A stretch of 42,313 nucleotides of DNA from Candidatus Saccharimonadota bacterium (GTDB taxonomy: Bacteria; Patescibacteriota; Saccharimonadia; Saccharimonadales; UBA4665), in assembly GCA_027315225.1 (NCBI GenBank), contig DAHUYJ010000008.1, positions 1 through 42,313 on the forward strand. Reading direction: 5' to 3'. The position numbers were made by a program, and so were the translations under genes. The notes below the pieces were generated by a model, which was given only the letters and a program-made list of their open reading frames with translations, was not told the origin of the DNA and did no database searches. Of the stretch, positions 6,181 to 42,313 are shown piece by piece. The first letter of the stretch is position 1. Every line of letters starts with the position of its first letter.

Positions 6181-6266
6181 GGGGATGTGGTGGAATTGGT
6201 AGACACGCTAGCCTTAGGAGCTAGTGCCCTTGCGGCGTGAAGGTTCAAGTCCTTTCATCCCCACCA
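6181..6266 (+). tRNA. tRNA-Leu (anticodon UAG), CCA encoded
   Basis: The acceptor stem GGGGATG (6181-6187) pairs perfectly with CATCCCC (6256-6262), followed by discriminator A and an encoded CCA. The anticodon loop reads CTTAGGA, giving anticodon UAG for CUN leucine codons. The T-loop is TTCAAGT. A long variable arm (about TGCCCTTGCGGCG) makes it a class II tRNA, as expected for leucine. Confidence 0.96.
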
Positions 6267-6301
6267 GGCTTTTTGCGTGAATGGCGACAGCAGAACCCTG
6301 C

Positions 6302-6307
6302 TAGAAT
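6302..6307 (+). promoter_or_regulatory. Extended -10 promoter of hisS
   Basis: TGCTAGAAT fits TGnTAnaaT and predicts a start near 6314, a few nt before the hisS ATG at 6321. No Shine-Dalgarno sequence is present. Confidence 0.45.
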
Positions 6308-6320
6308 GTGTATTAAGACT

Positions 6321-7631
6321 ATGGCGCTATCAAAACAACCATATAAAGGCGCGAGGGATTTTTATCCGGCCGATAAGCGTGTGCAGAAGTATCTGTTCAG
6401 CGTGTGGCGGACAGTGTGCGAGCGTTTTGGTTACGAAGAATACGATGCGCCGATCCTGGAGCCGTTAGAGATCTATCTGGCCAAGACTGGCGAAGAGATC
6501 GTCAACGAGCAAACGTACACTTTTGAGGATCGCGGCGGTCGTAATGTCGTGGTTCGGCCCGAGATGACCCCTACGGTCAGCCGCCTGGTGGCCGCCCGCC
6601 GGCAGGAGCTGGCCTATCCGTTGCGCTGGTACAGTATCCCCAACCTGTGGCGCTATGAGCGGCCGCAGCGCGGCCGCCTACGCGAGCATTGGCAGCTTAA
6701 CGTTGATCTATTCGGTGTGGCTGGCATTGAAGCCGAGCTGGAAATGATTACCCTGGTTGACGCTATCTTCAAAGCTTTCGGCGCCGACGAGGGCATGTAT
6801 GAAATCCGTCTGAATAGCCGCCAGTTGATGGATATTGCCCTGAGGCAATATTTGCATCTCACCGAGTCCGAAGCGCATGACATTCGGCGCCTGATAGACC
6901 GTATGCACAAGCTGGACCACGACAAGTTCATTGCCATGGCCGATGGTATATGCAGTCCCAAAGCCCGCCAGACCGGCGTAGTCGAGAGGCTGCTGTCCTT
7001 GCTGTCAGCCGGTAGCCTGGATGAATTGCCGCAGGAGCTGCAAGCGCATGATTCAGTTAATGAATTAAATAAAATGATCAGACTGCTCAAGCAGGCCGGC
7101 ATCAGCAATGTGAAGTTCGACGTGAGCTTGATGCGCGGCTTTGACTATTACACCGACATCGTTTTTGAAGTCTTCGACAAACATCCGGATAATAACCGTT
7201 CCATGCTCGGCGGCGGCCGGTATGACGGGCTGGTCGGGCTGTTCGGCGTCAACCCGATACCGACCGTAGGCTTCGGCTGGGGCGATGTGACACTGGCCAA
7301 CTTCTTGGAGCTGCATCACTTGCTACCGAAGCTGACTCCGGAAACCGACATCTACGTGGTGCTGGCAGGTGATGTAGGGACAAAAATCCAGAAACCTGTT
7401 GACGAACTGCGCCAGGCCGGTCTTAACGTTGCGGTTGACCTGTCCGGCCGCAAGCTTGGCGATCAGCTGAAAGCTGCCGCCAAAAAAGAAATTCCGTTTG
7501 CCCTAGTTATCGGCGAGGAGGAACTGGCCGAACAGAAGTTCACGCTTCGTAACCTAAAAGAGCATAGCGAGTCAAAGCATGACCTCAAGCGTATTACAGA
7601 GATCGTTAAGCAAGCCCATGACGGCGATTAA
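6321..7631 (+). CDS. hisS: Histidyl-tRNA synthetase
   Basis: Class II synthetase charging tRNA-His. The start is placed at ATG 6321 (MALSKQPYKGARDFYP, 436 residues). The frame is open further up, but that would run into the tRNA gene; ATG 6306 is an alternative five codons upstream. Class II motifs are visible: RPEMTPTVSRLVA (ATP/dimer region), motif 2 RYERPQRGRLREHWQLNVD, the HisRS-specific RGFDYYTDIVFEV, GGGRYDGLVGLFG and motif 3 PTVGFGWGDVTL. A C-terminal anticodon-binding domain starts near TDIYVVLAG and includes GDQLKAAAKKEIPFALVIG. The 3' end overlaps the next gene by 14 nt. Confidence 0.96.
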   Translation: MALSKQPYKGARDFYPADKRVQKYLFSVWRTVCERFGYEEYDAPILEPLEIYLAKTGEEIVNEQTYTFEDRGGRNVVVRPEMTPTVSRLVAARRQELAYPLRWYSIPNLWRYERPQRGRLREHWQLNVDLFGVAGIEAELEMITLVDAIFKAFGADEGMYEIRLNSRQLMDIALRQYLHLTESEAHDIRRLIDRMHKLDHDKFIAMADGICSPKARQTGVVERLLSLLSAGSLDELPQELQAHDSVNELNKMIRLLKQAGISNVKFDVSLMRGFDYYTDIVFEVFDKHPDNNRSMLGGGRYDGLVGLFGVNPIPTVGFGWGDVTLANFLELHHLLPKLTPETDIYVVLAGDVGTKIQKPVDELRQAGLNVAVDLSGRKLGDQLKAAAKKEIPFALVIGEEELAEQKFTLRNLKEHSESKHDLKRITEIVKQAHDGD

Positions 7632-32612: not shown

Positions 32613-33079
32613 AGTATCACGAACTACAGGCCAGCCCTAAACAAACCGCTAAGCGTGTAGGCCGCGGTACAGCTTCCGGCCGCGGCAAGACCTCCGGCCG
32701 CGGTACCAAAGGCCAAGGTTCGCGGACCGGTTCGAGCAAAAAGCCCGGCTTTGCCGGCGGCGCGAACCCGCTCATGCAGCAGCTTCCCAAGTTGCCCGGC
32801 TTCCGCAGCCGAAGGACTAAGGCCGAGACCGTTTATACCGGCCAGCTGGAACAGTTTGCCGGCAAGACCGTGGACGCCACAACTCTGGCCGAAGCCGGTT
32901 TGATCAGTAACCCCTATGTTACGGTCAAGGTGCTTACCAAAGGAGAGTTGTCCAAGAAAGTAACTGTTAAGCTGCCCAAAGCCAGCGAATCCGCTGCGGC
33001 AGCCATACAGAAGGCTGGTGGCGCGTTCGAAAAAACCGTGCGTCTCAGCCGCCCCAAAACTGCGAAGGAAAAAAAGTAG
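32609..33079 (+). CDS. rplO: 50S ribosomal protein L15
   Basis: 156 residues. RVGRGTASGRGKTSGRGTKG, GFAGGANPLMQQLPKLPGF and the C-terminal domain with ATTLAEAGLI and VKVLTKGELSKKVTVKLPKA identify L15. The basic N-terminal half threads into 23S rRNA. Last ribosomal gene before secY, with an 83-nt gap after it. Confidence 0.97.
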   Translation: MKYHELQASPKQTAKRVGRGTASGRGKTSGRGTKGQGSRTGSSKKPGFAGGANPLMQQLPKLPGFRSRRTKAETVYTGQLEQFAGKTVDATTLAEAGLISNPYVTVKVLTKGELSKKVTVKLPKASESAAAAIQKAGGAFEKTVRLSRPKTAKEKK

Positions 33080-33162
33080 CCGGAAACACAACTGCCGTAA
33101 GCTTTATGGTGTCGGGTATCTGTGCTTTAATAGATGCAAGTTATGATTGAGACTAATCGGCC

Positions 33163-34683
33163 GTGAATTGGAAAATTATTGCCAAGTCGCTTGGGCACAA
33201 GGATATGCGCACGCGCATCCTGGTGGTGGTCGGCATACTGCTTGTTTACCGCATCCTGGCACATGTCCCGGTACCGCTTGGTAATGCGCAGACGCTGCAC
33301 CAGGTACTGCAGAACTTATTCAATTCCAGCAGTACGCCGCAATTCCTGAGTCTTTTCAACGTCTTTTCCGGCGGTGCGTTGGCCAACTTCTCGATTATGA
33401 TTGCCGGTCTGGGGCCGTACATTAACGCGTCGATTATTATGCAGATGTTGACGAAGGCGGTGCCGCAGCTGGAAGCGCTGCACAAAGAAGGGGAGTTTGG
33501 CCAAAAAAAGATTAACCAGTACACTCGTATGCTGACGTTTCCGCTGGCCGTTATCCAGTCCATAGGGTCCATATACTTGATCCGGCAGGCGGCTCAATCC
33601 ATCGGCGGCGTTGGTGACATAACAGCGCACGCTTCAATCATGCAATGGGTTATGATGGTCGCGGCCTTGACCGGCGGCTCTATGCTTTTGATGTGGCTGG
33701 GCGAGTTAGTGACTGAACAAAGTATCGGCAACGGTATTTCACTGATTATTACAGTCGGAATCGTCAGCCGCTTACCGGCAAATATTTTCAGCCTGGTGAG
33801 CTCGGCTGTCAAAAAGGGAGACCACTGGAAGGTATTGGGACACACCTTGCCTATCGACACGAACGGCTTCATCGTTGCCGTTATTATTCTGGCGGTAATC
33901 CTGTTAATAACGTGGTTGGTGGTCATGCTCAATGAGGCGGCCCGCAACCTAACTGTCAATTACGCCAAACGCGTCCAAGGTAACCGTACGTATGGCGGCA
34001 TCACCACTATACTACCTGTTAAGATGATTACCGCCGGCGTGATTCCTATTATATTCGCGGTAGCTTTCCTGAGCGTACCCAGCTTTGCCGGCCAGCTGTT
34101 GAGCGGCAGCCACAACGTGCACTGGGCCCGCATCGGAAGCGACATGGTAACCTGGTTCCAGACCCCGTCGGCTACGACGTTCGCTGCAGAGGGACTGAAA
34201 GCTTACATCTACCCGGTCACCTACTTCCTGCTGGTATTTGTATTTACCTTCTTCTATACAAGCATTACCTTCAACCCGAAAGAAATTGCCGAGAACCTGC
34301 ATAAGCAAGGCGGTTTTATTGAGGGGGTGCGGGGCGGCGAGCAAACCGAGAAGTATCTGGGCAAGATCGTCAACCGGTTAACACTTTTCGGGGCAATCAG
34401 CCTCGGCTTGTTAGCTATCCTGCCGGTCGTTGCCCAGGTGTTCATTACGACCAGCATTACAGTCGGCGGTACCAGCGTGCTCATTTTGGTCTCCGTAGCC
34501 CTGCAGACGCTCCGCGCCGTCGAGTCCCGGGCTTTGATGGTAACATATGACCAGTACTCGCAACCTGATTTCTTCTATGACTCTGACATACCGGGACTCG
34601 GTGCCGAAGCCCAGCGCAGCCTTAAGTTCGGCCCTCGTTTGCTGCGGCGTATGCGCGGCTCCGGTAAGACGCCCAAGAAATAG
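33163..34683 (+). CDS. secY: Protein translocase subunit SecY
   Basis: 506 residues with about ten membrane helices; starts at GTG 33163. Typical segments: MRTRILVVVGILLVYRI (helix 1), the plug region FNVFSGGALANFSIMIAGLG, PYINASIIMQMLT, GEFGQKKINQYTRML, LTEQSIGNGISLIIT-like VTEQSIGNGISLIITVGIVS and GGFIEGVRGGEQTEKYLGKI. It is the channel of the general secretion pathway. Extracytoplasmic loops and the C-terminus (GPRLLRRMRGSGKTPKK) are longer than in E. coli. No adk or map follows, unlike in most spc operons. Confidence 0.97.
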   Translation: MNWKIIAKSLGHKDMRTRILVVVGILLVYRILAHVPVPLGNAQTLHQVLQNLFNSSSTPQFLSLFNVFSGGALANFSIMIAGLGPYINASIIMQMLTKAVPQLEALHKEGEFGQKKINQYTRMLTFPLAVIQSIGSIYLIRQAAQSIGGVGDITAHASIMQWVMMVAALTGGSMLLMWLGELVTEQSIGNGISLIITVGIVSRLPANIFSLVSSAVKKGDHWKVLGHTLPIDTNGFIVAVIILAVILLITWLVVMLNEAARNLTVNYAKRVQGNRTYGGITTILPVKMITAGVIPIIFAVAFLSVPSFAGQLLSGSHNVHWARIGSDMVTWFQTPSATTFAAEGLKAYIYPVTYFLLVFVFTFFYTSITFNPKEIAENLHKQGGFIEGVRGGEQTEKYLGKIVNRLTLFGAISLGLLAILPVVAQVFITTSITVGGTSVLILVSVALQTLRAVESRALMVTYDQYSQPDFFYDSDIPGLGAEAQRSLKFGPRLLRRMRGSGKTPKK

Positions 34684-34765
34684 TCCGGCCAGGGGTAGCA
34701 GATAGGACAGAACCCTATGACACGAGTCGCGGGTTCGCCCGGCTCCGGGTTCAAAAGCCCTGTAG
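34684..34765 (+). other. GC-rich structured intergenic segment after secY
   Basis: The 196-nt secY-infA gap has two halves. In the first, ATAGG-ACAGAAC-CCTAT and a UUCG-tetraloop hairpin CGGG-TTCG-CCCG (34730-34741) can form; CCCG-GCTC-CGGG (34738-34749) competes with the latter. No T-tract follows, so it is not a standard terminator. The second half holds the infA promoter. Confidence 0.35.
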
Positions 34766-34813
34766 AATGTGATATTATACCTGATAAGTTCGCCTTACTG
34801 GCGAAGAGTTGAT

Positions 34814-34861
34814 AGAGTTTACAAAAAACTCTTTACAAAGGGTTGTAACAACTGCTATAAT
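34814..34861 (+). promoter_or_regulatory. infA promoter with two overlapping inverted repeats
   Basis: TTTACA (34832-34837), an 18-nt spacer and TGCTATAAT (-10 at 34856-34861, extended). AGAGTTT-ACAAA-AAACTCT (34814-34832) abuts the -35, and GTTGT-A-ACAAC (34842-34852) lies in the spacer. Either could be an operator. The -10 ends 18 nt before the infA ATG. Confidence 0.65.
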
Positions 34862-34879
34862 TGCTCTCTAGTTATATTT

Positions 34880-35101
34880 ATGGCAGCCAATAAGGAAGTA
34901 ATCGAACTGACGGGCACTGTTGTCGAAACCTTGCCGGGGACACAATTTCGTGTCGAGCTCGAGAACGGCCATAAGATTATAGCTCACGTTGCCGGCAAGA
35001 TGCGGAAGCATTTTATCCGTATCGTTCCCGGCGATAGCGTTACGGTCGAGTTGACCCCTTACGACCTTACGAAGGGAAGAATCACGTACCGCAAAGGATA
35101 G
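34880..35101 (+). CDS. infA: Translation initiation factor IF-1
   Basis: 73 residues from ATG 34880 ([20 protein letters not shown]). The frame is open upstream but that part covers the promoter. Single S1/OB domain with [40 protein letters not shown] and GRITYRKG, all diagnostic. It occupies the A site during initiation. No clear Shine-Dalgarno sequence is present. Confidence 0.98.
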
Positions 35102-35171
35102 GCCCTAGGGGCATTAACATTACTTTAAGAAGCAGTGAGTCATTGCTTGAAGCTAAGGAGCTGTGATCCGC

Positions 35172-35288
35172 ATGAAAGTGCGTGCTAGCGTAAAGAAAAT
35201 CAGTCCGGATGACAAGATTGTCCGCCGCAAAGGCAGGGTATATGTTATCAACAAGTTCAAACCTAAGCATAAGCAGAGGCAAGGCTAA
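35172..35288 (+). CDS. rpmJ: 50S ribosomal protein L36, zinc-ligand-free
   Basis: 38 residues, starting [20 protein letters not shown]. The usual zinc ligands C11, C14, C27 and H33 are here S11, D14, N27 and H33, so the ribbon cannot bind zinc in the standard way. The remaining sequence, including the end KHKQRQG, is ordinary L36. AAGGAG precedes the ATG, and the stop overlaps the rpsM start by one base. Confidence 0.95.
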
Positions 35289-35674
35289 TGGCGCGTATCT
35301 CAGGTGTTACTATTCCTGCTGAAAAACAGGTTTGGGTTGCCCTAACCTACATTCACGGCATCGGCGCTAAAAGTGCGAATGACATCCTGTCCAATGCCAA
35401 GGTGGAGCCTACTACCAGAGTCAAGAATCTGACCGATACGGAAATTGCTCATATCCAGGATGTAATTAACGCCGACTACCTTGTAGAGGGCGAGTTGCAA
35501 CGACTGGTCAGCAGTAATATCAAGCGTCTAAAAGACGTTAAATCGTACCGTGGGATGCGTCACTCAGCAAACCTGCCGTCACGCGGACAGCGCACTAAGA
35601 CCAACGCCCGTACGCGCCGTGGCAAGAAGGTTACCGTCGGCGGCACCGCGAAGAAGGTCGCTTCCAAGACATAA
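35288..35674 (+). CDS. rpsM: 30S ribosomal protein S13
   Basis: 128 residues. [57 protein letters not shown] and GQRTKTNARTRRGKK are diagnostic. S13 contacts the P-site tRNA and bridges to L5. The C-terminal basic tail TVGGTAKKVASKT is ordinary. Confidence 0.98.
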   Translation: MARISGVTIPAEKQVWVALTYIHGIGAKSANDILSNAKVEPTTRVKNLTDTEIAHIQDVINADYLVEGELQRLVSSNIKRLKDVKSYRGMRHSANLPSRGQRTKTNARTRRGKKVTVGGTAKKVASKT

Positions 35675-35682
35675 GGACTACC

Positions 35683-36156
35683 ATGGCAGAAGATAAGAAA
35701 CCAACCACTACTGAAGAAAAGCCGGCCGCACAGGTCGCTACGGACGCTCCCGAAGCTACTGCTTCCAAGCCGGCTGTGGCTCCCAAGCGCAAAAAATCCA
35801 AGCGCAACGTCCCGGGCGGCCAGGTACACGTTCTGGCTACATTCAACAACACCATCGTAACGTTTTCTGACAACAACGGTAATGTGCTGACCGCTTCCAG
35901 TGCTGGAGCCTGTGGTTTTCGCGGCTCTAAGAAAGGCACGGCTTACGCAGCCCAGGTTGCCGCTGAGCGGGCAGCACAGGCAGCAAAGCAACAGTACGGC
36001 TTCGCTAAGGCCGATGTATTCGTAAAGGGTATAGGCCTGGGCCGTGATGCGGCCGTACGGGTGTTGAGTTCCATGGGTATTGCCGTAGAGAATATTAAAG
36101 ACGTAACTGGTCTGCCGCATGGCGGTGTCCGGCCGCGGAAAGCCAGAAGGATTTAA
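35683..36156 (+). CDS. rpsK: 30S ribosomal protein S11, long N-terminal tail
   Basis: 157 residues; about 40 N-terminal Glu/Lys/Ala/Pro residues (MAEDKKPTTTEEKPAAQVAT onward) precede the core. Core motifs: GQVHVLATFNNTIVTFSDNN, AGACGFRGSKKGTAYAAQVA, GLGRDAAVRVLSSMGI and LPHGGVRPRKARRI. It lies on the 30S platform by the Shine-Dalgarno helix. Confidence 0.97.
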   Translation: MAEDKKPTTTEEKPAAQVATDAPEATASKPAVAPKRKKSKRNVPGGQVHVLATFNNTIVTFSDNNGNVLTASSAGACGFRGSKKGTAYAAQVAAERAAQAAKQQYGFAKADVFVKGIGLGRDAAVRVLSSMGIAVENIKDVTGLPHGGVRPRKARRI

Positions 36157-36165
36157 CTATAAATT

Positions 36166-36783
36166 ATGGCACGAGATCGTAGTTCAATCGTCAAAATGAG
36201 CCGCCGCGAAGGGTATGCCTTGCATCCCAAGGCCCACAAGGCTTTAGTAAAACGTACCGCCAAACCTGGCCAGAACCCCGGAAGCCGCAGTAGGAGCAAG
36301 ACCAGCCAATACAGCCTTCAACTGCGCGAGAAACAAAAAGTTAAGCGGCTCTATGGCCTGCTTGAACGACAATTCAGCAAACTGATGAAAGAAGCTTCGC
36401 TGCAAGAAGGCCAGTCCGGCCAAATATTGCTGCAGATGCTTGAGCAACGGGCTGACAACGCCGTGTATCGGGCTGGCTTCGCGAGCAGCCGCCGGGCGGC
36501 GCGCCAATTAGTTACACATGGCCATTTTATGCTGAACGATACGCGGATCGATATTCCCTCTATCCGTTTGAAGCCTGGTGATACTCTTAGCGTTCGCCCG
36601 CACAGCCACCAGACCGAATACTTTAAGAAGCTTGATGATGTGAGCCCGGCCCCGAGCGGATTGCCCGCCTGGCTAAAGGTTGACCGCAAGAAAACCACGC
36701 TGTCAGTTACCGGTATCCCGTCACGCGACGATGCCGAACCTGATATTAATGAACAGTTAATAGTTGAGTACTACTCACGTTAA
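36166..36783 (+). CDS. rpsD: 30S ribosomal protein S4, zinc-free type
   Basis: 205 residues. The N-terminal segment SSIVKMSRREGYAL aligns with the zinc form (CRLCRREG) but has Ile/Ser in place of the cysteines. QYSLQLREKQKVKRLYGLLE, RADNAVYRAGFASSRRAARQ and HGHFMLNDTRIDIPS (S4 domain) are diagnostic. It is a primary binder of 16S rRNA and, in E. coli, repressor of the alpha operon. Confidence 0.97.
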   Translation: MARDRSSIVKMSRREGYALHPKAHKALVKRTAKPGQNPGSRSRSKTSQYSLQLREKQKVKRLYGLLERQFSKLMKEASLQEGQSGQILLQMLEQRADNAVYRAGFASSRRAARQLVTHGHFMLNDTRIDIPSIRLKPGDTLSVRPHSHQTEYFKKLDDVSPAPSGLPAWLKVDRKKTTLSVTGIPSRDDAEPDINEQLIVEYYSR

Positions 36784-36801
36784 AAAGGAGCCACATATAC
36801 T

Positions 36802-37758
36802 ATGTCAAACGTTATTCACACCCCTGGACTCGTCAAGGTTGACGATCACAGTGCCAATAGCGCATCTTTCGTGATCGAGCCCCTGCACAACGGCTATGGC
36901 ATGACGCTTGGCAATAGCCTGCGCCGTGTACTGTTATCCAGTATCTCGGGTGCCGCGGTTACCTCATTTAAGATTGAGGGCGTAACACATGAGTTTACCG
37001 ATGTCCCGGGAATCAAAGAGGATGTCATTGACATTATGCTCAACCTAAAGGGTGTGCGTTTGAGGGTATATGGTAGTGAGACGCAGAATTTGCGCATCGT
37101 TAAACAGGGGAAGGGCGTTGTAACTGCCAAGGACATCCAGACTAACGCCGATGTAGAAATCGTTAACCCGGAGCACGTTATAGCCACCATTGATGATGCC
37201 AAGTCAAAATTTGTAGTGGACCTGGCCGTTGAAGTCGGCCGCGGCTACCGGACGATTGAGGAGGGCGCCACTAAGAAAGCCAGCGACATGATCGCTATAG
37301 ATGCTATCTTCAGTCCGGTACAGAGGGTTCGCTACAAGGTCGAAAACACCCGTGTCGGCCAAGCTACCGACCTTGACCGGTTGCTTTTGACCATTGATAC
37401 GGACGGCTCTATTACGCCGCAAGACGCTTTCGAGGAAGCTGCTGCCATTCTGGTCAACCAATATACAGCATTAGCCGGCAAAACCAGGGTTGCGACCAAT
37501 GAACCAGCTGCCGAGACCGGGGGCAATCCGGATGACGAATTCGGCAGCGACCTATTAGGAGAAGAAACGACCGCCCTTAACACCTCTATCGAAGACCTTA
37601 ACCTTTCGGCTCGGACCACGAACGCCCTGATCAATAACGATATCCACACTATTAGAGACCTGTTCGCCCTCAACGACGCCGAGTTGCGCGACCTCAAGGG
37701 CTTTGGCAGCAAAGCGCTCGACGAGGTGAAAGAAAAACTGGCGGAGCTGGAGCTTTAA
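36802..37758 (+). CDS. rpoA: RNA polymerase alpha subunit
   Basis: 318 residues. The N-terminal assembly domain has EPLHNGYGMTLGNSLRRVLL and VTHEFTDVPGIKEDVIDI. A linker of about 35 residues follows (ETGGNPDDEFGSDLLGEE). The C-terminal DNA-binding domain is intact: SIEDLNLSARTTNALIN, whose Arg is the equivalent of E. coli R265, and GFGSKALDEVKEKL. UP-element contacts are therefore expected in this genome. AAAAGGAG precedes the start. Confidence 0.98.
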   Translation: MSNVIHTPGLVKVDDHSANSASFVIEPLHNGYGMTLGNSLRRVLLSSISGAAVTSFKIEGVTHEFTDVPGIKEDVIDIMLNLKGVRLRVYGSETQNLRIVKQGKGVVTAKDIQTNADVEIVNPEHVIATIDDAKSKFVVDLAVEVGRGYRTIEEGATKKASDMIAIDAIFSPVQRVRYKVENTRVGQATDLDRLLLTIDTDGSITPQDAFEEAAAILVNQYTALAGKTRVATNEPAAETGGNPDDEFGSDLLGEETTALNTSIEDLNLSARTTNALINNDIHTIRDLFALNDAELRDLKGFGSKALDEVKEKLAELEL

Positions 37759-38250
37759 ATGCATCGACACGGCTATCAGGGTAGAAAGCTGCACCGCGAA
37801 ACTGGTCCCCGGCAGGCGCTTATCAAGGGTTTGGCTGACTCTCTGGTTATCCACGAGTCTATAGAAACCACGCTGCCTAAAGCCAAAGAAGTCGTGCCAT
37901 ATCTTGAAAAGCTTATCACCAAGGCCAAGAAAGGCGACCTGCACAGCCGCCGACAGGTTCTGAGCGGCTTGCAGACAGTTGCCAGCGCCCATAAGCTGGT
38001 TGATGAGATAGCACCCAAGCTCAAAGGACGCGATAGCGGGCATCTGCGTATTGCTAAAACCGGCCTGCGCCGCGGTGACAATGCACAATTAGCTCGCGTC
38101 AGCTTTGTAGACGACCTCAAGTCGGCACCTGTAGCCGGGCCTGCCAAGGTCAACGCCGCAGCTCCGGCTGCGAAAAACAGCGATAAGCCAGCCGCTGCCA
38201 AGCCTAAGCCCCAGACCCAAACCCAGGCCAAAAAGGAGGCTGTCAAATGA
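37759..38250 (+). CDS. rplQ: 50S ribosomal protein L17, Lys/Ala-rich tail
   Basis: 163 residues; the core of about 115 has MHRHGYQGRKLHRETGPRQA, LIKGLADSLVIHESIETTLP and a C-terminal GLRRGDNAQLARVSFVD. A tail of about 45 residues of Ala/Pro/Lys repeats (KNSDKPAAAKPKPQTQTQAK) is extra. It starts directly after the rpoA stop and overlaps rplM by 4 nt. Confidence 0.97.
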   Translation: MHRHGYQGRKLHRETGPRQALIKGLADSLVIHESIETTLPKAKEVVPYLEKLITKAKKGDLHSRRQVLSGLQTVASAHKLVDEIAPKLKGRDSGHLRIAKTGLRRGDNAQLARVSFVDDLKSAPVAGPAKVNAAAPAAKNSDKPAAAKPKPQTQTQAKKEAVK

Positions 38251-38687
38251 AAACTTACAGCGCCAAGCCAGCTGATGTCACGCGCCAGTGGTATATCATA
38301 GATGCCAGCGAAGCATCGCTTGGCCGTATTGCAACCAGGGCCGCAGGGTTGCTTATGGGCAAAGGCAAACCGCAGTTTACCAAGCACATTGATTGCGGCG
38401 ATTTTGTAGTTATTATAAATGCCGAAAACCTTGTTGTGACTGGCAACAAACAGGCTGGCAAGCTGTACTACCGGCACACCGGCTACCCGGGCGGGCTCAA
38501 GACCACCGCTTTAGCAGATAAGCAGGTTCAGGATCCGGCTTTTGCATTGACGCACGCTATACGCGGTATGCTTCCCGACAATCGCTTACGCCCCGAGCGG
38601 CTTAAACGGCTTAAAGTTTACGCTGGTGCCGATCACAAGCACGCCCCGCAGCAACCAACTGTTATTTCAATGAAGGATACTAAATAA
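38247..38687 (+). CDS. rplM: 50S ribosomal protein L13
   Basis: 146 residues. KPADVTRQWYIIDASEASLG, LLMGKGKPQFTKHIDCGDFV, TGNKQAGKLYYRHTGYPGGL and IRGMLPDNRLRPERLKRLKV identify L13. It is paired with rpsI, as in most bacteria. Confidence 0.98.
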   Translation: MKTYSAKPADVTRQWYIIDASEASLGRIATRAAGLLMGKGKPQFTKHIDCGDFVVIINAENLVVTGNKQAGKLYYRHTGYPGGLKTTALADKQVQDPAFALTHAIRGMLPDNRLRPERLKRLKVYAGADHKHAPQQPTVISMKDTK

Positions 38688-38688
38688 T

Positions 38689-39087
38689 ATGGCAAAAGAT
38701 ACGTACTTTTATGCTCTCGGCAGGCGCAAAAGCGCCACAGCCCGTATTCGCCTGCAAGGCGGCAAAGGAGTAATTACTATAAATAACCAGCCAGCTGAAG
38801 AGTATTTCGCAGGTAGTAAGCATCTCCTGGCCAAACTGCAGCAACCATTTACCATTCTGGACCAGACCAACAAGTTCGATATCAGCGTAGTGGTGTCCGG
38901 CGGGGGCCATGATGGTCAGGCCGAAGCCATCCGGCTCGGCATTGCCAAAACGCTGACCGCTATGAACGAAGACTTCAAGGGTACGCTCAAGCGCGCCGAC
39001 CTTCTCGGCCGCGATTCGCGTGAAAAAGAGCGCAAGAAGTTCGGCCTGCGCGGTGCCCGCAAGCAACGCCAGTTCACCAAACGCTAA
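38689..39087 (+). CDS. rpsI: 30S ribosomal protein S9
   Basis: 132 residues. YALGRRKSATARIRLQGGKG, FDISVVVSGGGHDGQAEAIR, LGIAKTLTAMNEDFKGTLKR and the tail FGLRGARKQRQFTKR, whose last Arg reaches the P-site tRNA. It is the last gene of the ribosomal block, 28 nt before a strong new promoter. Confidence 0.98.
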   Translation: MAKDTYFYALGRRKSATARIRLQGGKGVITINNQPAEEYFAGSKHLLAKLQQPFTILDQTNKFDISVVVSGGGHDGQAEAIRLGIAKTLTAMNEDFKGTLKRADLLGRDSREKERKKFGLRGARKQRQFTKR

Positions 39088-39115
39088 AGAGCATGCCCCT
39101 CAGCATAAATAGCGC

Positions 39116-39144
39116 TTGACATATAGAGCGTATGGGTGTAAAAT
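39116..39144 (+). promoter_or_regulatory. Strong promoter of the aromatic amino-acid unit
   Basis: TTGACA (39116-39121), a 17-nt spacer and TAAAAT (39139-39144). The -10 ends 7 nt before the leader-peptide ATG at 39152, so the transcript is predicted to begin at or one base before that ATG (leaderless). Confidence 0.9.
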
Positions 39145-39151
39145 CACGGGC

Positions 39152-39232
39152 ATGTTACGTATGCATATGCAGAGCAACCAGTATTGGTTTACCGGCTTGA
39201 ATGAAGGCGGTGAGTTCTGTACGTACGCATAA
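39152..39232 (+). CDS. 26-residue leader peptide with Tyr-Trp-Phe, upstream of DAHP synthase
   Basis: ATG at the predicted transcription start; 26 codons, then TAA. The peptide begins MLRMHMQSNQ and then has consecutive Tyr (39182-39184), Trp (39185-39187) and Phe (39188-39190) codons, followed by TGLNEGGEF and a second Tyr near the end. The three aromatic amino acids in a row just before a gene for aromatic biosynthesis, plus a terminator 25 nt after the stop, identify it as an attenuation leader. The Gly-Gly codons (39206-39211) spell GGCGGT, the antiterminator strand. It has no expected function as a peptide. Confidence 0.85.
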   Translation: MLRMHMQSNQYWFTGLNEGGEFCTYA

Positions 39233-39280
39233 AAGATCAATACGATCAGCAAGGACAACCGCCGCAAAGGCGGTTTTTTA
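39191..39280 (+). promoter_or_regulatory. Ribosome-mediated attenuator before DAHP synthase
   Basis: Segment 1 ACCGGCTT (39191-39198) pairs with segment 2 AAGGCGGT (39204-39211), 7 of 8 positions. The GGCGGT of segment 2 can instead pair with segment 3 ACCGCC (39258-39263), which is also the 5' arm of the terminator. Segment 1 begins immediately after the Tyr-Trp-Phe codons, so a ribosome stalled there would cover it and free segment 2 to form the antiterminator. Confidence 0.8.
39257..39280 (+). terminator. Intrinsic terminator (attenuator arm 3:4) before DAHP synthase
   Basis: AACCGCC-GCAAA-GGCGGTT followed by T-rich TTTTA: a 7-bp stem, 5-nt loop and U-tract, 40 nt before the DAHP synthase ATG. 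There is no other gene end nearby that needs it. Confidence 0.93.
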
Positions 39281-39320
39281 TTTAATATACTGAGAAGAGA
39301 AAGCAACCAGGAGAGACCAG

Positions 39321-40523
39321 ATGAGTGAACAACAGCAACAGTTAGAAGCCTCACACCAGCAACGGCTGATGGCGGCTGAGGCTATTGTCGATAGCTTGCC
39401 TGAGCCCGACTATAAGGCTAACTACCAAGTACCATACGACCGAGCTGAGCTGGTAGGTGCCTTGGTCGAGAACCTTGATACTCCCGGAGTAGCCAAGCCG
39501 GTAGAAATAGATTCTCTAAGAGGGCGACTGGCGGCTATTGGCGAAGGCTCCAGCCGCCAGCCGCTGGTGATTACCAATAGCTGCGCCGAAGACATCCGAA
39601 TAGGTCGACCGATTGAGAGATTGGGAGATAATACCCTGGTAGAGCTGGCAGCAATTGGTTCCTCTGCCGTGGCGCATGCCATAAAAGTGCAGCGTATCGG
39701 CGGCCAGTTTGTTAAACCGCGTACTGAAGAGTTTGAGGGGCTGCCTGACGGCAGTAAAGTGCAGTCCTACAAAGGGGACGGTATCAACGACAGGCGTACC
39801 GACCGTCGCGATCCAGATCCGAGCCGGCTGGTCGGCGGTGCAGCACAATCGAGGAGTTTGCAGGAGTACCTGACCTTGCAAACTGGTGATCCGGTACTGA
39901 TGGCTCATGAGGCGCTGTCATTGGCATACGAGAGACCGTTTATACGCCAGGATCCCGAAAACGGCAAGCAATACCTGCTTTCTGCGCATCTGCCCTGGAT
40001 AGGTAAGCGCACGAACGCGCCCACCAGTGTCCAGGCCGAATTGCTAACAGGGGTGGAAAACGCTATTGGGGTAAAGATAGGGGCGAACAGCGACGAGGAG
40101 CATATCGCCCAGCTAGCCGAAACGCTGAATCCTGACGGGCTGCCCGGCAAAATCGTCTTCATGCTGCGTTTAGGCGCCCAGGACGCAAGCCGTTACCCCA
40201 TCATTCTGCGCGGCATCAAACAGCACGCCGAAGGTTCTTTGGTGCTCTATGACCTGCATGGGGAGACGAGAGTTAATGAACATGGAGAAAAAATCCGTGC
40301 GGTGGGCGATATAGAGCAAGGCATAGCGCGCTTAGCTGGAGCCTGTGATGATGCTGGCCTGCGGCTGCACGGTATCCACCTGGAGACAGGGGCTGACTAC
40401 CGGCAGCTGGAATGTATCGATGAGCGGCATCAGCGCCCATCGCAACGGGGCAACGTTGACCCACGCCTTAACCCTAGACAGACTAGACAGGTTCTCAACT
40501 TCGCCGCACCTTACATCAGTTAA
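39321..40523 (+). CDS. Class II 3-deoxy-7-phosphoheptulonate (DAHP) synthase
   Basis: Condenses phosphoenolpyruvate and erythrose-4-phosphate, the entry step to chorismate. 400 residues, shorter than plant or mycobacterial enzymes (about 450-470). All four metal ligands of the class II type are visible: C88 in TNSCAED, H313 in DLHGET, E355 in GIHLET and D380 in VDPRLNPRQT. Substrate residues include R125 and K132 in RIGGQFVKPR, SYKGDGIN (149-156), SAHLPWIGKRT (221-231), K252 in GVKIG and R283 in MLRLGAQ. AGGAG precedes the ATG. The attenuator upstream suggests control by aromatic amino-acid supply. It is read through into the trp leader. Confidence 0.93.
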   Translation: MSEQQQQLEASHQQRLMAAEAIVDSLPEPDYKANYQVPYDRAELVGALVENLDTPGVAKPVEIDSLRGRLAAIGEGSSRQPLVITNSCAEDIRIGRPIERLGDNTLVELAAIGSSAVAHAIKVQRIGGQFVKPRTEEFEGLPDGSKVQSYKGDGINDRRTDRRDPDPSRLVGGAAQSRSLQEYLTLQTGDPVLMAHEALSLAYERPFIRQDPENGKQYLLSAHLPWIGKRTNAPTSVQAELLTGVENAIGVKIGANSDEEHIAQLAETLNPDGLPGKIVFMLRLGAQDASRYPIILRGIKQHAEGSLVLYDLHGETRVNEHGEKIRAVGDIEQGIARLAGACDDAGLRLHGIHLETGADYRQLECIDERHQRPSQRGNVDPRLNPRQTRQVLNFAAPYIS

Positions 40524-40543
40524 TTACTCTTGAGGAATATAAG

Positions 40544-40627
40544 ATGACCAGATACTACACCAATAGCAATCGAGAAGACTGGCAGGCCGGCACTTGGCGT
40601 GGCGGTCTATTCGCCGTGCTTGTCTAA
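40544..40627 (+). CDS. trpL: 27-residue trp leader peptide with two Trp codons
   Basis: ATG 40544 has GAGG 8 nt upstream; 27 codons, then TAA. The peptide starts MTRYYTNSNRED and carries Trp at positions 13 (40580-40582) and 18 (40595-40597), two Trp in 27 residues. AGTWRGGLF near the end parallels TGLNEGGEF of the first leader, with the Gly-Gly codons again spelling GGCGGT (40601-40606). No promoter is obvious between the DAHP synthase stop and this ATG, so it is probably read on the same mRNA. Confidence 0.85.
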   Translation: MTRYYTNSNREDWQAGTWRGGLFAVLV

Positions 40628-40680
40628 ACGTCAAGCCCGGCTCCAAGAGCAAAAACCGCCTCGCTCGAGGCGGTTTTTTT
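40586..40680 (+). promoter_or_regulatory. Ribosome-mediated trp attenuator before trpE
   Basis: Segment 1 GCCGGCAC (40586-40593) pairs with segment 2 GTGGCGGT (40599-40606), 7 of 8 positions including one G-U. GGCGGT (40601-40606) can alternatively pair with ACCGCC (40655-40660) in the 5' arm of the terminator. Trp13 lies just upstream of segment 1 and Trp18 in the 1:2 loop. A competing small hairpin GGCG/CGCC (40601-40604 with 40612-40615) is also possible. Confidence 0.78.
40651..40680 (+). terminator. Intrinsic terminator before trpE
   Basis: AAAAACCGCCTC-GCTC-GAGGCGGTTTTT with two further T: a 12-bp stem with a 4-nt loop and U-tract, 31 nt before the trpE ATG. Its GGCGGT arm matches the copy in the leader ORF. 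Confidence 0.95.
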
Positions 40681-40690
40681 AATTAACATG

Positions 40691-40696
40691 TATAAT
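40691..40696 (+). promoter_or_regulatory. TATAAT box between the trp terminator and trpE
   Basis: A consensus TATAAT lies 14 nt upstream of the ATG, after the attenuator. No -35 is present at the usual distance. It could give weak attenuation-independent transcription, or be chance AT-rich sequence. Confidence 0.25.
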
Positions 40697-40710
40697 TTAA
40701 GGAGATAATA

Positions 40711-42313
40711 ATGAATAAACTACAAGAAGGCTCGGAAGGTGGGGCCGAGCAGAATCTACAGGTCTTTAGTTTTGGCGAAGTTCAGGATCTGGCGGAGCAG
40801 GGCTACGGGGTTATCCCGTTAGTAGAAAGGCTGCCGCAGACTGGGACCGCCAGCGCGTTGTATGAGCGTTTGCGCGGCGACACGCCATCTTTCTTACTGG
40901 AGTCGGCCGAGCTGGACGAGCGCCAGGGTCGCTACTCTTTTATTGGCGTTGATCCGGACATGGTAATTCGTCTCGAAGAGGAAGCTATGATGGTCAACGG
41001 GGAACGCCGCGAATTCAGCGATCCGTATGAGTTCGTAGATGGACTGATAACCAGTGACAACGTAGCGCCGGTAGCCGGCCTGCCGCCGTTTGCCGGCGGC
41101 GCCGTCGGTTTATTCGGGTATGATCTGGTGCGCTATAGGGAGCCGACAATCGGCCAGCCGAATGCCGACACTATGGGGTTGCCCGAGATGGCATTGATTG
41201 TCCCTGGAGTGACGATTGTTTTTGACCACTATAAGCAGGAGGTCAGCGCTATCAAGAACATCATTGTTGGCCCGGAAGGTACCGCTGGTGAGAGCTTGCG
41301 GACACAGTACGACGATGCGGTAGATGGGCTGACGGAAATCAGGCGGCTAATAACCGATCCTGGGCTTGGCGGCGAAGCTGCCAAGGGAAAGTACGGCCCG
41401 CTGAGTTTTCGCTCTAATATGACGGAAGAAGAGTTTAAAGCCGCTGTTGGGCGAGCTAGGGAATATACCCATGCGGGGGACGCGTTCCAGATAGTCCCAA
41501 GCCAGCGTTTCAGCTCTGAGGAGACAGTTGATAGGAATTTTGCGTACCATTATTTCCAGGAACTCAAGCGGTTGAACCCTAGCCGCTATGCTTTCCTGCT
41601 TGAATTTGGTGATTTTGAGGCTGCCGGCTGTTCACCAGAAACATTAGTTAAGGTAACAGGCGACGATGTTGAGCACATGGCGATTGCCGGCACACGTCGC
41701 CGCGGCCAGAACGAAGCCGAGGATCAACGCCTTGCAGCTGACCTGAGAAATGACCCAAAAGAACTGGCAGAACACGGTATGTTGGTTGACTTAAGCCGCA
41801 ATGACATGAGCCGGGTCTGTAACCCGGAGTCTGTAGCGGTTGATATGCACACCGAAGTCGAAAAGTACTCGCATGTCCTGCACATGACTTCGCGGGTAGT
41901 TGGTAGGTTAGCGCATGGCAAGAGCGCTCTCGACGCCCTGGCCAGTATATCACCGGCCGGAACGCTGTCTGGAGCCCCTAAGATCCGGGCCATGCAGATA
42001 ATTGACGAGCTGGAGCCAGACAAGCGCGGGTTTTACGGCGGCGCTGTCGGTTATCTGGGCTACGACGGCGACCTGAGCTCGTGCATATTTATACGATCCG
42101 CAGTAGTAGATAAGGGCGGTCATGTGCACGTGCAGGCCGGAGCCGGGGTCGTGGCTGATTCGGATCCGCAGAAAGAGTTTGAAGAAACTATGATTAAGGC
42201 GGCCGCTCCGAGAAGGGCAATTGATGAAGTGTGTGAACCGTCCATGCGTCGGCAAGCAGTTGTTCCTGAAGCGCAGCGACGCAAACCCGCACCCGATTCG
42301 CGTATGGAGCGAC
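40711..42313 (+). CDS. trpE: Anthranilate synthase component I (TrpE), 3' end beyond window
   Basis: Converts chorismate and ammonia or glutamine to anthranilate, the first step of the Trp branch. 534 codons are open to the window edge with no stop. AAGGAG precedes the ATG. LLESAEL (62-68) is the Trp feedback-inhibition motif. The chorismate-binding domain shows SPETLVKV, MAIAGTRRRG (usual GTRPRG), MLVDLSRNDMSRV, VEKYSHVLHMTSRV, SPAGTLSGAPKIRAMQIID and QAGAGVVADSDPQKEFEETM. GTLSGAPKIRAM and the trp leader favour TrpE over PabB. About 40 residues after the usual C-terminus (REAIDEV-like RRAIDEVCEPSMRRQ onward) are basic and unconserved, so a tail or a fusion linker to TrpG is possible. Confidence 0.92.
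   Translation, partial: MNKLQEGSEGGAEQNLQVFSFGEVQDLAEQGYGVIPLVERLPQTGTASALYERLRGDTPSFLLESAELDERQGRYSFIGVDPDMVIRLEEEAMMVNGERREFSDPYEFVDGLITSDNVAPVAGLPPFAGGAVGLFGYDLVRYREPTIGQPNADTMGLPEMALIVPGVTIVFDHYKQEVSAIKNIIVGPEGTAGESLRTQYDDAVDGLTEIRRLITDPGLGGEAAKGKYGPLSFRSNMTEEEFKAAVGRAREYTHAGDAFQIVPSQRFSSEETVDRNFAYHYFQELKRLNPSRYAFLLEFGDFEAAGCSPETLVKVTGDDVEHMAIAGTRRRGQNEAEDQRLAADLRNDPKELAEHGMLVDLSRNDMSRVCNPESVAVDMHTEVEKYSHVLHMTSRVVGRLAHGKSALDALASISPAGTLSGAPKIRAMQIIDELEPDKRGFYGGAVGYLGYDGDLSSCIFIRSAVVDKGGHVHVQAGAGVVADSDPQKEFEETMIKAAAPRRAIDEVCEPSMRRQAVVPEAQRRKPAPDSRMER

Follow-up and report, generated by a model that had tools for sequence, protein, structure and literature searches.

We found that the DAHP synthase gene in this Saccharimonadales genome is preceded by a short leader that, judged from the sequence and from modelled RNA folds, is very probably a ribosome-mediated transcription attenuator. 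The analysis establishes the parts of the leader, how far they are conserved and which alternative folds are predicted, and from these we infer where transcription would start, where the ribosome would stall, where termination would occur and to which amino acids the system would respond. On this reading, a known mechanism would extend to a new lineage, where a conserved leader would sample three aromatic amino acids and has a probable tandem copy in front of trpE.

The leader lies on the + strand of the window, the whole 42,313-nt contig that we analysed, between rpsI and the gene for a 400-aa class II DAHP synthase (39321-40523; PF01474, E = 2.9e-57). A sigma-70-type promoter, TTGACA-17 nt-TAAAAT (39116-39144; -35 at 39116-39121, -10 at 39139-39144), matches 11 of 12 consensus positions and is the best site in the region, in agreement with the strong promoter called by the first-pass annotation. 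Also as called there, an ATG at 39152, 7 nt past the -10 and at the predicted +1, opens a 26-codon ORF (39152-39232, MLRMHMQSNQYWFTGLNEGGEFCTYA); no Shine-Dalgarno-like sequence precedes it, and the ORF is predicted to be leaderless. Its consecutive Tyr11-Trp12-Phe13 codons (TAT TGG TTT, 39182-39190) are followed immediately by segment 1 (ACCGGC, 39191-39196), which in minimum-energy folds is the partner of segment 2 unless covered by a ribosome. Segment 2 (GGCGGTGAGTTCT, 39206-39218) begins with GGCGGT and would form the 5′ strand of the antiterminator within the ORF; by folding and pairing computation its counterpart is segment 3 (39252-39263), composed of AGGAC and the terminator 5′ arm AACCGCC, and this cognate duplex has a predicted energy of -17.7 kcal/mol. 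The intrinsic terminator (39257-39279) consists of a 7-bp stem at 39257-39275 (-11.6 kcal/mol) and a TTTT U tract. The aromatic codons, the position of segment 1, the terminator and the alternative pairing of GGCGGT with the terminator 5′ arm had thus all been read correctly from the letters, the pairing as a possibility.

The leader RNA folds more stably than its dinucleotide shuffles (z = -4.1, with 0 of 200 shuffles reaching it). The antiterminator of this genome taken alone is unremarkable, with 12% of shuffles pairing equally well, and the weight of the case therefore falls on the comparison between genomes. An 84-aa ORF on the opposite strand (39100-39354, - strand) was judged by reading to be incidental.

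Among 393 genomes from the order, 6 proved to carry DAHP synthase, in one of them as a fragment at a contig end (G053); 2 more genomes of the class carry it. Only seven homologues have readable upstream DNA, spread over two orders of the class, and all seven (this genome, G000, and six others) carry a short leader with a Tyr/Trp/Phe cluster, a terminator and an alternative antiterminator. The alignment of upstream regions that the first-pass annotation had proposed as a check therefore left its reading standing, the aromatic codons and the alternative pairings being kept in each case. The peptides of the six other genomes are MSTANPVASVYWFTDFIKAVS (G029), MIKMLTYPFWFTNSC (G052), MLRKRINKAYWFTGQSWTVYSA (G054), MGKMLPLYYTWNFNYFFRKRRFSLY (G064), MNRARYYFWFTSNLHRG (G418) and MKLLSPNFYAWYFFTDNLPRG (G396). 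A YWFT-like motif is present in six of the seven, in the form YWFT in G000, G029 and G054, FWFT in G052 and G418, and AWYFFT in G396, while G064 has YYTWNFNYFF; Tyr, Trp and Phe all occur inside or beside the cluster in every leader, which from sequence supports the claim that all three amino acids are sensed. Since the seven enzymes share only 23-46% identity in alignment, the conservation of the leader is deep. No such leader was found before 11 unrelated class II DAHP synthases of named Actinobacteria and Proteobacteria, and the contrast between 7/7 in the class and 0/11 outside it has a Fisher probability of 3e-5, phylogeny ignored. Shuffling single leaders yields an ORF with three aromatics within four codons in 5-17% of cases, which for all seven gives a product probability of about 7e-8, and the motif [WFY]W[WFY] turns up in 0.1-0.9% of shuffles per leader.

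The architecture around the codon cluster is similarly kept. The terminator hairpins range from -10.6 to -16.5 kcal/mol, and the stop codon lies 20-24 nt from the terminator arm in six of the seven leaders. None of the seven has an SD-like sequence upstream of the leader start, and by eye the start codons lie about 7-11 nt past a -10-like box, a promoter spacing that fits a leaderless start in G000, G029, G052, G064 and G418 and a near-leaderless one in G054 and G396. Among 10 strict terminators scanned in selected stretches of this genome, an aromatic-rich ORF precedes only those of DAHP synthase and trpE. A scan of genome contigs with DAHP synthase reached only actinobacterial MAGs, in which the leader is absent; a scan of viral contigs returned no relatives, and a family search around G029 added no genomes.

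The gene for DAHP synthase follows rpsI in G000, G029, G052 and G054, which indicates a common ancestral locus with loss elsewhere and speaks against contamination; trpS lies close 3′ of it in G029, G052 and G054. The same neighbourhood raises the question of whether the terminator merely ends the upstream rplM-rpsI transcript, the small ORF being incidental. In this window rpsI ends at 39087, 170 nt upstream of the terminator, and a terminator at that place would serve it. However, the terminator is separated from rpsI by a strong promoter, G054 has a separate terminator-like hairpin directly after rpsI, the leader and terminator persist in G064, G418 and G396 behind a different upstream gene, and the aromatic codons are conserved, all of which makes this explanation very improbable. 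A slightly smaller chance still attaches to the view that the ORF is no sensor and that its product is a functional small protein bearing a conserved WFT motif. WFT is indeed more conserved than the neighbouring residues, but the peptides range freely in length (15-26 aa) and in their N- and C-terminal sequences, in G000 the conserved Thr codon (ACC/ACG) coincides with the region where segment 1 pairs, and in every case an antiterminator strand overlaps the end of the ORF or lies next to it. Least probable of all is that this terminator answers to another RNA sensor, such as a T-box, a riboswitch or a leader bound by protein, for although aromatic biosynthesis genes in Firmicutes are under T-box or TRAP control, no Rfam family matches there up to E = 1, ribosome position alone accounts for the alternative folds, and what is conserved is a cluster of codons inside a short ORF. 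The Rfam search covered 33000-42313 and included Trp_leader (RF00513) and T-box; its one hit was a sub-threshold match (20.4 bits against a cut-off of 38) to the Alpha operon ribosome binding site at 35264-35320, near an ORF start at 35288.

The attenuator reading predicts that the position of the ribosome decides which fold forms. We folded each leader up to the terminator loop with the ribosome-covered RNA removed, using a mask that presumes E. coli-like footprints and sets the A site at an aromatic codon or at the stop codon, and computed the probability that upstream RNA holds the terminator 5′ arm. For a ribosome halted on the main cluster, one at the stop codon and none at all, this probability is 0.85/0.30/0.30 in G000 (0.84-0.85 across the Tyr, Trp and Phe stalls), 0.99/0.00/0.93 in G029, 0.98/0.01/0.99 in G052, 0.99/0.23/0.99 in G054, 0.85/0.01/0.85 in G064, 0.90/0.00/0.90 in G418 and 0.78/0.02/0.14 in G396. 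The predicted contrast between stalled (0.78-0.99) and stop (0.00-0.30) is thus uniform across all seven. The ribosome-free state varies, with the antiterminator forming without a ribosome in five of the seven, so that the default state differs by genome. In the model, G000 and G396 would behave as classical four-segment attenuators and the remaining five as three-segment ones.

The antiterminator pairing also appears to persist, to differing degrees, through sequence change. GGCGGT/ACCGCC is replaced by TTGGACGGTT/AACCGTCCAA in G054, and in G418 CCGAGG..TAGGTTTTAA pairs with TTAAAACCT..CCTCGG; such preservation is clear in these two genomes and partial in G396 and G064. Single-genome shuffle tests of the pairing gave mixed results (P from 0.39 to <0.001), four of the seven leaders being non-significant singly (P_shuffle 0.12-0.39), and in a cross-matrix of antiterminator strands the cognate partner ranks 1-4 of 8 by column and is not always the best. 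Collectively, with leader and pairings kept in 7/7 homologues and the leader absent from the 11 unrelated genes, the comparison supports the overall interpretation as an attenuator.

Under this interpretation, transcription would begin at or beside the ATG and translation of the leader would be leaderless. A shortage of charged tRNA-Tyr, tRNA-Trp or tRNA-Phe would stall the ribosome at codons 11-13, where it would hide segment 1, leaving GGCGGT of segment 2 to pair with the terminator 5′ arm and permitting read-through into DAHP synthase and then towards trpE. When all three aromatics are ample, the ribosome would reach the stop codon and segment 2 would be either covered or refolded onto segment 1; with segment 2 unavailable the terminator would form and the RNA would end near 39280.

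A second attenuator-like element, missed by the first-pass annotation, separates DAHP synthase from trpE (anthranilate synthase component I, 40711-42312, truncated by the contig end; PF00425, E = 3.1e-86; TIGR00564, E = 7.8e-142). On the + strand, just 20 nt past the stop codon of DAHP synthase, begins a 27-aa leader ORF (40544-40627, MTRYYTNSNREDWQAGTWRGGLFAVLV) with a Shine-Dalgarno-like GAGGAA, followed 23 nt after its stop codon by the arm of an intrinsic terminator (40651-40678) with a 12-bp stem (-18.1 kcal/mol) and a T-rich tail. Masked folding gave a sequestration of the terminator arm of 0.61 with the ribosome stalled at Trp13 (40580-40582), 0.02 at the stop codon and 0.32 without a ribosome, and the antiterminator pairing beats 99.5% of shuffles. 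With Trp13 of this leader placed on Trp12 of the first, the two agree in the positions of W, G, GG, F and the stop; the distance from Trp to stop is 45 nt in both, and their global DNA alignment outscores 499 of 500 shuffles. These similarities suggest that the element at 40544-40678 is a paralogue or duplicate of the first, with the qualification that shared pairing constraints also yield likeness. This second leader with its Trp codons would repeat the test before trpE, and the two genes would pass two gates, one set by all three aromatics and the next mainly by Trp. The sole other PF00425 match, as a homologue against which the second leader might be compared, belongs to a PabA/PabB-like pair in G030. 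That pair lies on contig C6 of G030, a relative in which neither chorismate synthase nor DAHP synthase was detected.

Next we consider the enzyme under control. The 400-aa protein scores above the cut-off for PF01474 and below that for NCBIfam TIGR01358 (168 vs 614.7 bits), and its closest solved structure is 6bmc. The residues invariant in the seven homologues (C, R..GQ..KPR, HE, RT, K, R, HG, H.E, EC, DP..N) are intact. It is without an insertion of about 40 aa carried by the G418 and G396 enzymes; inserted helices of this kind contribute to Trp feedback in M. tuberculosis AroG, and by analogy a loss of allostery in the 400-aa enzyme is therefore possible.

The first-pass annotation placed this control at the first step of the aromatic pathway. 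DAHP synthase does follow the leader, but chorismate synthase, DHQ synthase and a true EPSP synthase were undetected in this genome, and "first step of the pathway" is therefore an incomplete account. None of the eight genomes with a DAHP synthase, fragment-bearing G053 included, yielded chorismate synthase (PF01264) or DHQ synthase (PF01761), and the EPSP synthase matches in these genomes proved MurA-like, every one far below the curated cut-off. In control genomes the same searches recovered chorismate synthase and EPSP synthase in 14 of 14 and DHQ synthase in 11 of 14, the three misses being archaea. Genes that use chorismate are present in two of the DAHP-synthase genomes: G000 holds trpE and IGPS/trpC, and G029 has, directly 3′ of DAHP synthase, prephenate dehydrogenase (tyrA), chorismate mutase/prephenate dehydratase (pheA), an aminotransferase and trpS. 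The top of the pathway and some of its bottom steps are thus present, and the middle (AroA, AroB and AroC were searched) was not found. In this genome IGPS/trpC stands isolated from trpE, on the - strand of contig C22, beside a sugar-kinase-like gene and, by eye, near a DMT-type transporter-like gene.

A tentative explanation, to which we assign a low probability, is that DAHP synthase serves a pathway split between two organisms, DAHP being made here, the middle of the shikimate route being absent and the chorismate-derived end steps (trpE and trpC, or tyrA and pheA) being used here. If so, aromatic starvation would lead the attenuator to raise DAHP and so promote synthesis in a host or partner to which the cell is attached and in which DAHP synthase is under feedback inhibition; in return the cell would receive aromatics or chorismate.

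Individual features of the proposed attenuator have precedents. The closest case is aroR of C. glutamicum, an aromatic leader peptide (Phe-Tyr-Phe) that, as here, lies directly before a DAHP-synthase gene (aroF), and at which stalling raises transcription (Neshat et al. 2014, as summarised in PMC11802643 and PMC4046766); the reported response is to Phe and not to Tyr (PMC11802643). No Trp is reported in the aroR motif, whereas the leaders here retain Tyr, Trp and Phe alike; moreover, C. glutamicum has a working aromatic pathway, while AroA, AroB and AroC were undetected in our genomes. The trp leaders of Streptomyces and Corynebacterium likewise combine a leader peptide with alternative hairpins before trpE (PMC8079986, PMC1262725), and trpL1 of S. 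lividans (MFAHSTRNWWWTAHPAAH) is itself leaderless (PMC8079986). They contain only runs of Trp, however, and the trpE leader described here, which has an SD-like site, is intra-operonic. Upstream of Phe or Tyr operons in Actinobacteria, Seliverstov et al. reported an absence of conserved structures (PMC1262725). Among the open-access papers searched, none dealt with leader-peptide attenuation in the Candidate Phyla Radiation. Membership of that radiation fits the genomes of the order, which are about 1 Mb in size and mostly 92-99% complete, and the window itself, where rplO directly follows rpsE and the uL30 gene is absent between them. The sampling of several amino acids by one leader is shared with the E. 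coli ilvGMEDA and thrABC attenuators, which differ in using branched-chain or Thr/Ile codons behind a normal 5′ UTR, where the present leader uses three aromatics and is predicted to be leaderless.

Cells with reduced genomes are usually thought to have little such regulation. The retention of a three-aromatic leader in an order in which DAHP synthase went undetected in about 98% of the genomes sampled would imply that aromatic supply is actively sensed, and an attenuator on an enzyme whose product has no detectable onward route would make metabolite exchange with a host a concrete question. Elsewhere in the window, a tRNA-Leu gene (6181-6266) overlaps the start of a mechanically listed ORF (6237-7631). 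On contig C4 of the same genome (2720-2840), a leaderless short ORF (MVKIIVSFVTSHHAHLLPACAD) and a terminator precede a D-Ala-D-Ala dipeptidase-like (Peptidase_M15) gene, a possible further attenuator.
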